Positions 4,801-16,153 of a DNA stretch of 29,549 nucleotides are shown one piece after another; positions within the stretch are counted from its first letter, which is position 1; every line of letters starts with the position of its first letter. This DNA comes from an uncultured Oscillospiraceae bacterium (GTDB taxonomy: Bacteria; Bacillota; Clostridia; Oscillospirales; Ruminococcaceae). Made by a program: the position numbers and the translations under genes. Where the stretch lies: contig URGV01000026.1 of the NCBI GenBank assembly GCA_900547455.1, positions 1 to 29,549 of the forward strand. The letters are read 5' to 3'. The notes under the pieces are model-generated. The model made no database searches. It was not told the DNA's origin and saw only the letters and a program-made list of their open reading frames with translations.

Positions 4801-5826
4801 TTAGGCAAACAGCGGCCCTACCAGATTGAACAAAAATCCAATCCCCATAATCCCCACCGTCACGATGCCGGTGAACACCGCCAGCAGCTTTGGCTTGACC
4901 GCCTTGCGCAGCATCACCAGCGAGGGCAGCGACAGCGCCGTCACCGCCATCATGAAGGCCAGCACCGTCCCCAGCCCCGCGCCCTTGGCGTACAGGCTTT
5001 CCGCAATCGGGATGGTGCCGAAGATGTCGGCGTACATCGGCACGCCCACCAGTGTCGCCAGCGGCACCGAATACCACTGCCCGCTGCCCAGCACCCGCTC
5101 CACAAACGCCTGCGGGATAAAGTTGTGGATGGCCGCCCCGATGCCGACCCCCACCAGCACATAGGGAGCCACCTTGCGCACGGTGGAGAGCACCTGATTC
5201 TTGGCGTAGTCCAGCCGCTCGGCGGTGGAGAGGGTGGGGGACTGCAGGTCGACGCTGCCGATCTGCCGCGCCGCCTCCCGGATGAAGTCCTCGATCTGCT
5301 CCTCCATCCCCAGCCGCTCGATGATGCTGCCGCCGATGACCGCCAGCACCAGCCCCACCGCCACATAGGCCACCGCGATGCCGCCGCCAAAGACGCTGGT
5401 CAGCAGCACCAGCGACCCCAGATCGACCAGCGGCGAGGAGATGAGAAACGAAAAGCTCACCCCCAGCGGGATGCCTGCGCTGGTGAATCCCATAAACAGC
5501 GGGATGGACGAGCAGGAGCAGAACGGCGTCACTGTCCCCAGCAGAGCCGCCAGCGTGTTTGCCCCGAGGCCGTGGAACCGTCCGAGAATCTTTTTGGTGC
5601 GCTCGGGCGGAAAGAAGCTCTGGATGTAGGAGATGCCGAAAATCAGCACCGAGAGCAGCACAAAAATTTTGATGGTGTCATAGATAAAAAACTGCAGCGC
5701 CCCGCCCCAGCGCCCGGTGATGTCCACTCCCAGAGAGGAGAGCAGCCTGCCGGTGAGGGTGTTCAGCCACTTCATCCCCAGAATTTGATTTTGAAAAAAG
5801 TCCCATGCCAGCTGCATTGCTTCCAT
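4801..5826 (-). CDS. ArsP-like/DUF318 (YraQ-type) permease
   Basis: This 341-residue polytopic membrane protein belongs to the DUF318 permease family. The family signature TPFCSCSSIPLF lies at residues 100-111, with Cys103 and Cys105, followed by SPLVDLGS at about 131-138. Characterised relatives such as ArsP export trivalent methylated arsenicals; others are uncharacterised metal(loid) permeases. The start is ATG 5826 with AGGAGG (5834-5839) 7 bases upstream. It follows a CxxC redox protein and an ArsR-CobW gene on the same strand, which supports a metal(loid) role. An intrinsic terminator and an ATCGAT-type operator lie in the 90-base gap before it, so it may be controlled separately. Organoarsenical efflux is an inference. 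Confidence 0.85.
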   Translation of the reverse strand: MEAMQLAWDFFQNQILGMKWLNTLTGRLLSSLGVDITGRWGGALQFFIYDTIKIFVLLSVLIFGISYIQSFFPPERTKKILGRFHGLGANTLAALLGTVTPFCSCSSIPLFMGFTSAGIPLGVSFSFLISSPLVDLGSLVLLTSVFGGGIAVAYVAVGLVLAVIGGSIIERLGMEEQIEDFIREAARQIGSVDLQSPTLSTAERLDYAKNQVLSTVRKVAPYVLVGVGIGAAIHNFIPQAFVERVLGSGQWYSVPLATLVGVPMYADIFGTIPIAESLYAKGAGLGTVLAFMMAVTALSLPSLVMLRKAVKPKLLAVFTGIVTVGIMGIGFLFNLVGPLFA

Positions 5827-6166: not shown

Positions 6167-7444
6167 CTAGTTTTTCAGCGGCATCGGCTCACCGAAATGC
6201 TGCTGCCAGGCCGCTGTCAATGGGTGGATGATGGCCGGACCGATTTTGGAGATAAAGACCATCTCCGCCTTCTCCTTTGGTTCGCAGGGCTTTAAGTCCA
6301 CCCTCCGGCCGACCAGGTCCACCTGCTGCCAGCCCTTGCCCGCAATCTCAAAAAAGCCCTTGGCGCGCAGCAGGCTGTCCGCGACGTCCAGCAAAAAGGC
6401 GCGCAGCGTTTCCTCCTCCACCGGTTTGTCATAGTTCATAAAGAGGGTCTTGGGCTTGGTTTCGACCGAGTTGCTACTCTCCTCGCTCTCGGCCCAGCGG
6501 TACTGGGTCAGATCCTTCTGCAAAAAGGAGAGGTCGAGGTTGGCGTTGGCGCTGACCTCGATGGGGCAGATGGGGTTGATCTCCCGAATCTTTGCCTCCA
6601 CTGCCTCCAGCCGCTGCGGGTCGACCAGGTCCACCTTGGTGACCACCGCCAGATGGCAGTGCTTGACCTGCCGGTAGACCGTCTCCTCGTCGCTGGGCTG
6701 GCCGTCCGCCAGCTGGTCGAAGAAGTTGACCGCATCCACCAGGCAAATTGCGCCCTGAAAGTCAAACACATCTCCGGCCAGCTCCTTTGCCGCCGCCAGA
6801 ATTTCCTCGAGGTTGGAGGGGTCGCCCCAGCCGGAGCTCTCGACGAACAGATATTCCAGATTCTGCTTTGCCATTTCGGCCAGCCCCTGCACAAACGAGA
6901 GCTTTAAGCAGGTGCAGAAGATCGAGCCGCGGTTGAGCTCGACCATCTTGATGTCGCCGTCCCGCAAAATCTCCCCGTCGATGCTCAGCTTGCCAAATTC
7001 GTTTTGGATGACGCCGACCCGATGGCCTTTGAGCTGCTCAAGCAGCTTGAGCAGGATGGTTGTCTTGCCCGACCCCAGAAAGCCGGTCAGCACATACAGT
7101 TTTGTTTTGCCCTCCACAATTGTCTCCTCCTTTTTGGTGCAGGCGCACAGCGATGGGGCCTGCCGGGAGGCGGTGAGCAGGCCGTCCAGCAGCCCCTTTG
7201 CCGCCTGTATCCCCTCGGGCCGCAGCGAGTAGTGGGTCCACTTGCCATCCCGGCGGCTGGTGATCAGCCCCGCGTCGCACAGCACCTTCATGTGGTGGGA
7301 GAGGGTGGACTGGCTGATCTGCATCCGGGTGAGCAGCACGCAGGCGCAGCGCTCCCCCTCCTTGAGTGTTTCCAAAATCCGCCAGCGGTTCTCGTCGCCC
7401 AGCGCCTTAAAGATGGCCGCCGCGGCAGGATTATGTTTTTCCAC
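6167..7444 (-). CDS. ArsR-family repressor fused to CobW/COG0523 GTPase
   Basis: One frame carries two proteins. Numbering from the upstream ATG at 7459, residues 1-100 are an ArsR winged helix (ISQSTLSHHMKVL recognition region). Cys38 and Cys40 in ERCAC sit where As(III)-sensing ArsR proteins have CVC; a second pair, Cys105/Cys107, ends the domain. Residues 119-430 are a CobW-type GTPase: Walker A GFLGSGKT, NEFGKLSIDGE, a Cys-Thr-Cys variant (GSIFCTC) of the usual CxCC metal site, TKVD, and a CobW C-terminal domain. The ATG at 7459 lacks a ribosome-binding site and overlaps the operator, so I prefer GTG at 7444, with GGGAG 8 bases before it. An internal AAGGAGGAG plus GTG at the domain junction could also yield free GTPase. 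It is the first gene of a metal(loid) operon. Confidence 0.85.
   Translation of the reverse strand: MEKHNPAAAAIFKALGDENRWRILETLKEGERCACVLLTRMQISQSTLSHHMKVLCDAGLITSRRDGKWTHYSLRPEGIQAAKGLLDGLLTASRQAPSLCACTKKEETIVEGKTKLYVLTGFLGSGKTTILLKLLEQLKGHRVGVIQNEFGKLSIDGEILRDGDIKMVELNRGSIFCTCLKLSFVQGLAEMAKQNLEYLFVESSGWGDPSNLEEILAAAKELAGDVFDFQGAICLVDAVNFFDQLADGQPSDEETVYRQVKHCHLAVVTKVDLVDPQRLEAVEAKIREINPICPIEVSANANLDLSFLQKDLTQYRWAESEESSNSVETKPKTLFMNYDKPVEEETLRAFLLDVADSLLRAKGFFEIAGKGWQQVDLVGRRVDLKPCEPKEKAEMVFISKIGPAIIHPLTAAWQQHFGEPMPLKN
7115..7132 (-). promoter_or_regulatory. Internal ribosome-binding site and GTG at the ArsR/CobW junction
   Basis: On the minus strand, AAGGAGGAG (7132-7124) is followed six bases later by GTG (7117-7115), in frame with the fused protein (Val115 from the upstream ATG). 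It sits immediately before the GTPase domain. A separate CobW protein of 316 residues could start here. Confidence 0.6.
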
Positions 7445-7457
7445 CTCATCATCTCCC

Positions 7458-7505
7458 ATCGATATTGATCGATATCAAGATAGCACACAAATCGATGAAT
7501 GTCAA
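7458..7505 (-). promoter_or_regulatory. Promoter and ArsR-type operator of the ArsR-CobW operon
   Basis: On the minus strand, a -35 TTGACA (7505-7500) and a -10 TATCTT (7482-7477) are 17 bp apart. Two ATCGAT boxes four bases apart (7458-7473) lie just downstream of the -10, overlapped by the TTGAT/ATCAA inverted repeat (7465-7478). A third ATCGAT (7491-7496) is inside the spacer. This arrangement fits autorepression by the ArsR domain. Confidence 0.7.
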
Positions 7506-15271: not shown

Positions 15272-15300
15272 ATTATAGCAATTTTTGGCGGCATAAACAA
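15272..15300 (-). promoter_or_regulatory. Sigma-A promoter for the NAD(P)H-hydrate repair gene
   Basis: On the minus strand, the -10 TATAAT (15277-15272) is perfect and the -35 TTGTTT (15300-15295) is weak at 17 bp. The -10 contains the TAA stop codon of arsM (15275-15273). Confidence 0.65.
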
Positions 15301-16088
15301 GCGGAATTTACAGTTTCTGCACAAGGCTGCGGCGGTTTTCTGGCAAAGACTTTGGCGGAAAGGATGTACTGCCCGACCGTCAGCTCCCCGCCCCACTTTT
15401 CCTCGTAGGCCCTGGACACAGGCTCGGTGCGGATGGAGATGTCGCAGAAGCCGGCCATGCGGATGATTTTTTCCAGTTCTTCGACCGAAGAAGCGCCCGA
15501 CACTCAGCAGGCGTACATCTGGTCGTCCTGTTTTATCTCTTTGGGCAGCTCCTTCATGATGACGATGTCGGAGATGCCGATGGCGCCGCCCGGCTTCAGC
15601 ACGCGCAGGATCTCGCGGTAGACGCGGGGCTTATTTTGCGAGAGGTTGATGACGCAGTTGGAGATCACCACATCGGCCAGGTTGTCCGCCGCGGGCAGAT
15701 TCTCGATCTCACCCAGGCGAAATTCCACATTGCGGCAGCGGTTTTCCTTTGCGGTGCGGCGGGCAAGGGAGAGCATCTCGGGGGTCATATCGACGCCGAT
15801 GACCCTGCCTTTCCGGCCCACCTTGTGCGAGGCAAGGAAGCAGTCGAACCCGGCTCCGCTGCCGAGGTCGATCAGCGTGTCCCCCTCCTTGACCTCGACG
15901 ATGCGAAAGGGGTTTCCGCAGCCGAGGCCCATATTGGCGGCGGGAGGGACCAGGCTGATTTCCTCCTCGGAGTAGCCGACGCTGACGTTGAGCGCCTGCT
16001 GGTCCGGGGAGGAGGAGAGGATGGTGTCCTGCTTGCCCTGTGCGATATCCGAATAACTTTGGCGGACAAAGTCCATTTTATGGTTCAT
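15273..16088 (-). CDS. arsM: Arsenite methyltransferase ArsM, apparent selenoprotein (in-frame TGA as Sec)
   Basis: This 271-codon frame is continuous apart from one TGA (15506-15504, residue 195). It is a SAM-dependent As(III) methyltransferase: DLGSGAG (74-80) and VDMTPEM (99-105) bind SAM. The arsenic-binding cysteines of the family are Cys57 in GLGCGNP, Cys145 in SNCVINL and a third in a Y-x-x-C-[VL]-x-G-A motif. Here that motif reads YAC-TGA-VSGA, so the TGA replaces the third cysteine exactly. Homology continues after it (VEELEKIIRMAGFCDISI). A SECIS-like hairpin follows. The start has AAGGAG 8 bases before ATG 16088. The C-terminus has an unusual cysteine tail. A conventional annotation would call a truncated gene (16088-15504) or a pseudogene. 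Selenocysteine is an inference that needs sel genes in the genome. Confidence 0.85.
15477..15506 (-). promoter_or_regulatory. Candidate bacterial SECIS element with its UGA codon
   Basis: Read on the minus strand, the UGA (15506-15504) is followed by a perfect stem TTCTTC/GAAGAA (15492-15477) with loop GGTC. The loop GU falls at positions 22-23 counted from the U of UGA, nearly the same as the 23-24 seen in E. coli fdhF. Bacterial SECIS elements lie in this window and need a G/GU in the apical loop for SelB. Confidence 0.7.
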
Positions 16089-16153
16089 GGAAGGTTCTCC
16101 TTCAAAAAGTAGGATGGGCTGGCGGCAAAAGAGCGCCAGACTGTATTTTTTCT

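Follow-up and report, generated by a model that had tools for sequence, protein, structure and literature searches.

The window, by which we mean the whole 29,549-nucleotide stretch of DNA analyzed here from an uncultured Oscillospiraceae bacterium, carries an arsM gene with an in-frame TGA, a SECIS-like hairpin just downstream of that codon, and two further genes whose families are associated with ArsM in a relative (Table 1). The first-pass annotation of this DNA had given no strand for the arsM gene, which is encoded on the minus strand. It begins with an ATG at 16088 and ends with a TAA at 15275-15273, a span of 271 codons in which the TGA at codon 195 (15506-15504) is the sole in-frame interruption.

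Table 1. Features of the arsM locus and of the neighboring candidate arsenic genes (window coordinates).
Feature	Position	Strand	Basis or remark
ArsP-type permease (PF03773), candidate exporter of methylated product	4801..5826	-	about 9.4 kb from arsM
ArsR-family regulator fused to CobW-type GTPase	6167..7459	-	family match; relatives beside Sec-arsM in L004
arsM, arsenite S-adenosylmethionine methyltransferase, 271 residues with internal TGA read as Sec	15273..16088	-	NF008823 match
C-terminal tail, residues 254-271, not conserved	15276..15329	-	absent from relatives
Conserved coding region 3' of the TGA, residues 196-253	15330..15503	-	homology, codon-position differences
SECIS-like hairpin, 6-bp stem TTCTTC/GAAGAA, loop GGTC (15483-15486)	15477..15492	-	positions 15-30 from the U of UGA
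TGA at codon 195, in frame and read as selenocysteine, in the place of CmArsM Cys224	15504..15506	-	alignment, homologue codons
Cys194 codon, immediately 5' of the Sec codon (CU pair)	15507..15509	-	sequence
AAGGAG, ribosome-binding-like site 5' of the arsM start	16097..16102	-	8 nt before ATG

Read through the TGA, the protein passes the NCBI family model for ArsM, NF008823, with 299.7 bits against a cut-off of 263. A relative whose predicted protein ends at its own TGA (P0077) scores 254.5 bits and falls under that cut-off. We predicted the structure of the window protein from a 30-row alignment (mean pLDDT 84.7). In each of two PDB searches CmArsM structures ranked first, ahead of CrArsM and human AS3MT, and the C224A mutant of CmArsM, 5jx7, was among the matches to the model. 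The overall superposition on CmArsM is loose, because the TM-score is 0.62 by query length (4fr0 first) and the rmsd is 6.7 over 250 columns. In the sequence alignment with CmArsM, which runs as far as residue 219 of the window protein, U195 is paired with Cys224, C145 with Cys174, and C57 with Cys72. Therefore, the first-pass annotation was correct, by order, in placing the TGA at the third conserved arsenic-binding cysteine. The motif around the codon is YAC-U-VSGA, in which U195-V-S-G fits the UxxG Sec motif. The further claims of the first-pass annotation, that this is an arsM gene and that the frame is broken by one TGA only, are likewise borne out by the family score and by the lack of any other internal stop.

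We then counted the residues found at codon 195 in homologues, as had been proposed in the first-pass annotation, taking only alignments that span this residue. From a scan of GTDB contigs we kept the best 80 of at least 578 confirmed stretches, and among these 80 the codon was TGA in 11 and TGT or TGC in 69. Order-level and family-level samples and one relative supplied further loci at thresholds of E 1e-70, 1e-10, and 1e-40, and 6 duplicates were removed. The resulting collection of 107 distinct arsM genes holds 24 TGA genes and 83 Cys genes; these proportions are not population frequencies, because the added loci were picked by score thresholds. A residue other than Cys at this site in relatives had been named beforehand as a point against selenocysteine, and no codon besides TGA and Cys occurred in the 107 collected genes. 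Of the 394 genomes in the order sample, 3 had an ArsM match at E 1e-70, and all three matches have an internal TGA, one of them spanning a TAG too. In a tree from which the Sec codon and its flanks (3 residues upstream, 9 downstream) had been left out, the 24 TGA genes form one side of a single branch with an SH-aLRT of 100.

Two members of the TGA set, L148 and L149 (from genomes G1356 and G1410), are distant ArsM relatives with 38 to 39% identity and TGA at the same codon. Their motif is T-U-VGGALP or S-U-VGGALP, neither of the two positions ahead of Sec is a Cys, and L148 scores 223.1 bits, under the NF008823 cut-off of 263. Their position in the tree is unsure because of a long branch; they are possibly a separate Sec methyltransferase group. 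Separately, two genomes contain Sec and Cys forms of ArsM together: G006 (L130 and L154) and G1386 (L131 and L155).

Predicted proteins in the databases bear the mark of the same codon. In alignment A1, 9 of the 29 database rows (64 to 87% identity) terminate exactly one residue before U, as do P0002, P0003, and P0004 at 96 to 99% identity. These shared ends make a sequencing error unlikely. P0005, at 98% identity, departs from the frame upstream of the U position. Several short database ArsMs, P0003, P0004, and P0006 among them, are predicted as 192 to 195 residues, cut at the TGA position.

Downstream of the TGA, homology continues in the same frame to about residue 252, which confirms the in-frame homology noted at first pass. 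Among the 23 other TGA genes, 22 keep the frame open for 56 to 61 residues past the TGA, and L113 keeps it open for 75. Over codons +11 to +57, the window protein is 53 to 62% identical to six Oscillospirales and Lachnospiraceae Sec-ArsMs. Compared over the same 47 codons with L112, L001, and L113, the window gene has 23, 26, and 33 third-position differences, respectively, with 13 to 18 differences at the first position and 8 to 9 at the second. The GC content of third positions is 0.84 upstream of the TGA, 0.77 in codons +1 to +57, and 0.33 in codons +58 to +75. The tail contains three cysteines, at residues 256, 264, and 266. Other TGA genes stop before the position of the tail; only L113 runs on, into a longer tail of a different sequence.

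The hairpin TTCTTC-GGTC-GAAGAA is perfect. Counted from the U of UGA, its loop spans positions 21-24 with GU at 22-23, so that the geometry first described for it (a perfect 6-bp stem, a GGUC loop, and GU at 22-23) was exact as written. We found the inner five stem pairs formed in 22/24 TGA genes but in only 5/83 Cys genes, and all six pairs formed in 12/24 versus 1/83. GU at 22-23 is present in 23/24 TGA genes and 24/83 Cys genes. L148 and L149 lie outside the hairpin register of the other TGA genes, with shifted hairpins visible by eye. Taken alone, the hairpin in the window sequence is weak evidence for a SECIS; its conservation across the TGA set and its rarity in the Cys set are the stronger signs of a putative element of this kind. 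The stem and the peptide that it encodes are confounded, however, because SSVEE, which carries the stem, is found over it in 22/24 TGA genes and 0/83 Cys genes.

A synonymous-codon control on the window hairpin alone gave P = 0.146; the P-values of individual genes were left uncombined because the genes are related. Covariation at third codon positions on both sides of the stem is better evidence than this single-gene control. In 22 TGA genes, 5 cells changed on both sides, a number equaled in 0 of 500 shuffles. Two other measures in these 22 genes were ordinary: of the 500 shuffles, 68 reached the observed count of pairs with changes on both sides, and 365 reached the observed number of further pair types. 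The outermost stem pair is broken in 10 of the 22, and sliding the register of the stem by +1 gives a covariation score of 0.133 versus 0.102 for the proposed register. Folding energy over 42 nt gave no signal (z = -0.18). At that length the best fold differs from the proposed hairpin; at 54 nt it contains the proposed stem. An Rfam search returned no SECIS match.

We next consider the machinery for Sec insertion, for which 18 genomes were searched. SelA and SelB both scored over cut-off in 11/11 genomes with a TGA-arsM and in 1/7 genomes with a Cys-arsM (G013). A tRNA-Sec was over cut-off in 13 of the 18. Ten of the 11 TGA genomes have one of 93 to 94 nt and at least 60 bits; among the 7 Cys genomes the matches are in G013 (56.7), G015 (52.2), and G017 (47.1). 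The exception among TGA genomes is G002 (Faecalicatena contorta ET51), in which selA, selB, and a TGA-arsM are present and no tRNA-Sec match exceeded the cut-off, possibly through a gap in the draft. SelB and tRNA-Sec were found in both of two more TGA genomes of the order, G476 and G611.

With TGA or Cys alone at codon 195, with Sec machinery in the TGA genomes searched, and with the frame and the hairpin after the TGA kept in TGA genes, the first-pass reading of Sec at a catalytic Cys is supported. We conclude with high confidence that the gene encodes an arsenite methyltransferase selenoprotein of the known Sec-ArsM family, in which UGA at codon 195 is read as Sec. The strongest rival is that arsM was transferred horizontally into a lineage without Sec machinery, where the TGA would stop translation and leave only a 194-residue fragment. 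Genomes related to that of the window were sought by pheS in samples of two families (300 and 349 genomes), the order (394), and the class (391). The best match among the sampled genomes has 79% DNA identity; nearer genomes may exist, because these were samples of larger groups searched with strict E-values only. In eight of the best pheS matches (77 to 79% DNA identity), neither selB (at E 1e-70) nor tRNA-Sec (at E 1e-8) was found. A close ArsM is missing from all eight: seven show none at E 1e-10, and the one in the eighth genome is a Cys form with 42% identity. With ArsM itself lacking from seven of them, these absences do not refute Sec, and at only 77 to 79% identity in pheS these relatives belong to species other than that of the window. 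The five database proteins of 76 to 87% identity whose sequences were inspected (P0006, P0012, P0015, P0017, and P0018) all end before the TGA position, as a fragment would. Against transfer followed by truncation stand the intact hairpin of the window and the region past the TGA, with its 53 to 62% identity to six Sec-ArsMs and its excess of third-position differences over codons +11 to +57. We therefore regard this rival as improbable. Sec use in the window's own species is something that we infer from the arsM gene itself.

A variant genetic code, in which TGA would stand for another amino acid such as tryptophan or glycine, is less probable still. Trp does appear at the Sec position in 12 of the 29 database rows of A1 (P0016, P0020-P0022, and others), probably through gene callers that translate TGA as Trp. 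However, the 107 genes read from DNA have no codon there other than Cys or TGA, and FeoB, PheS, PheT, and SpoIVA of the window match their families with frames uninterrupted under table 11. Least credible of all is that a Cys codon was misread in sequencing or recently mutated to a stop: although TGA is one base from both TGC and TGT, it occupies the same codon in 24 distinct genes, and database clusters spanning 64 to 99% identity end at the same residue.

Whether such an ArsM had been described was left open at first pass; published work does describe Sec at this ArsM position, and the window gene adds one member to the family. In Table 1 of PMC13188914, an arsenite methyltransferase of NF008823 with the motif UxxG and one Sec (WP_011987699.1) is marked "Experimentally verified," and this entry is credited there to Fomenko et al. 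2007 (reference 87 of that paper). A Sec arsenite methyltransferase is also listed in PMC9312934. Eight Sec ArsM sequences from ocean samples are given in PMC2398784, where arsM is named among the families occurring in both prokaryotes and eukaryotes, and 41 Sec-ArsM selenoproteins in 39 organisms are given in PMC5029168. Among the closest known systems is the Sec-ArsM of NF008823/PRK11873 (WP_011987699.1), which is of the same family as the window protein and has the same U-V-S-G motif. A related methyltransferase domain occurs in NF041536 (ArsM_DUF2284_UU), NF041537 (ArsM_AhpD_UU), and NF047649 (MTase_UXPK_star), for whose proteins PMC13188914 also gives UxxG as the Sec motif. The window protein scores far under the cut-offs of all three models (141.8 of 575, 155.6 of 510, and 146.9 of 460, respectively), and its 271 residues make it shorter than each (459, 345, and 283 positions). 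CmArsM shares with the window protein its fold and the three arsenic-binding positions aligned above, but it differs in having Cys rather than Sec at position 224 and in the N-terminal segment, which is without Cys in the window protein.

Two features mark the branch of the window among the Sec-ArsMs judged here, namely, the CU pair and the missing N-terminal Cys. A Cys one or two residues ahead of codon 195 is found in 22/24 TGA genes versus 11/83 Cys genes. The window ArsM has no Cys in the 40 residues preceding the GY motif, and neither has any of the 8 rows of its Sec branch. By contrast, a Cys lies within this stretch in each of the 71 Cys forms, out of 83, for which the stretch was judgeable, and in 14/14 rows of the Clostridium Sec branch, as CC in 13 and as CY in L010. 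L148 and L149 were not judgeable for the N-terminal Cys and stand outside these counts. The Clostridium branch has CGU at the Sec site together with the retained N-terminal Cys. In ordinary ArsM, the N-terminal Cys (Cys44 in CmArsM) probably belongs to a disulfide relay. It is tempting to speculate, although we give it less than even weight, that the branch of the window has a rewired redox chemistry, in which a strained selenenylsulfide between C194 and U195 would replace a long-range disulfide, with the Clostridium branch as an intermediate. The combination of a CU pair with a lost N-terminal Cys was not met in the parts of the Sec-ArsM literature covered by our searches, which says little, since the motif was never named in searching.

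Finally, we looked at the genes around arsM. The genes for the ArsP-type permease and the ArsR-CobW fusion share the strand of arsM and lie 7.8 to 10.5 kb away from it; the next same-strand gene past arsM, which encodes an NAD(P)HX repair enzyme, is 71 bases away. Immediately upstream of the Sec-arsM in Faecalicatena contorta ET52 (L004) are genes for an ArsR regulator, a CobW-like protein, and an ArsP permease. Relatives of all three occur in the window, at 64% identity (ArsP), 61% (CobW part), and 43% (ArsR part); the last two are separate ORFs in L004 and fused in the window. Against the model for the CobW-related selenoprotein, the fusion scored 63.5, under the cut-off of 180. A Pfam search of neighbors, limited to 20 chosen ORFs in 11 of the 13 Sec-arsM loci (L008 and L112 were left out), found an ArsR-family gene in 4 of the 11 (L004, L006, L007, and L011) and ArsP in 1 (L004). 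In L006, L007, and L011, too, the ArsR-type genes are upstream of arsM, and an ArsR-like stretch is recognizable in L128 by sequence similarity. This gene setting fits arsenite methylation coupled with export of methylated arsenic. That ArsP exports methylated arsenic is our assumption, read from the family name.

In the mechanism that we propose, UGA at codon 195 would be decoded as Sec via SelB and Sec-tRNA, aided by the hairpin just downstream. Sec195 would hold As(III) together with Cys145 and Cys57, and SAM would donate a methyl group to the bound arsenic; the residues are those of the alignment, and the chemistry is modeled on that of CmArsM. Methylated trivalent arsenic may then exit via the ArsP-type permease, as the order arsR, cobW-like gene, arsP, and arsM in one relative suggests.

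Surveys of arsenic genes in the Clostridia may overlook this well-supported selenoprotein or record it as truncated, because gene callers cut it at residue 194. With a selenolate ligand in the place of Cys224, it would offer a natural test of the effect of this residue on the rate and the product of arsenic methylation.
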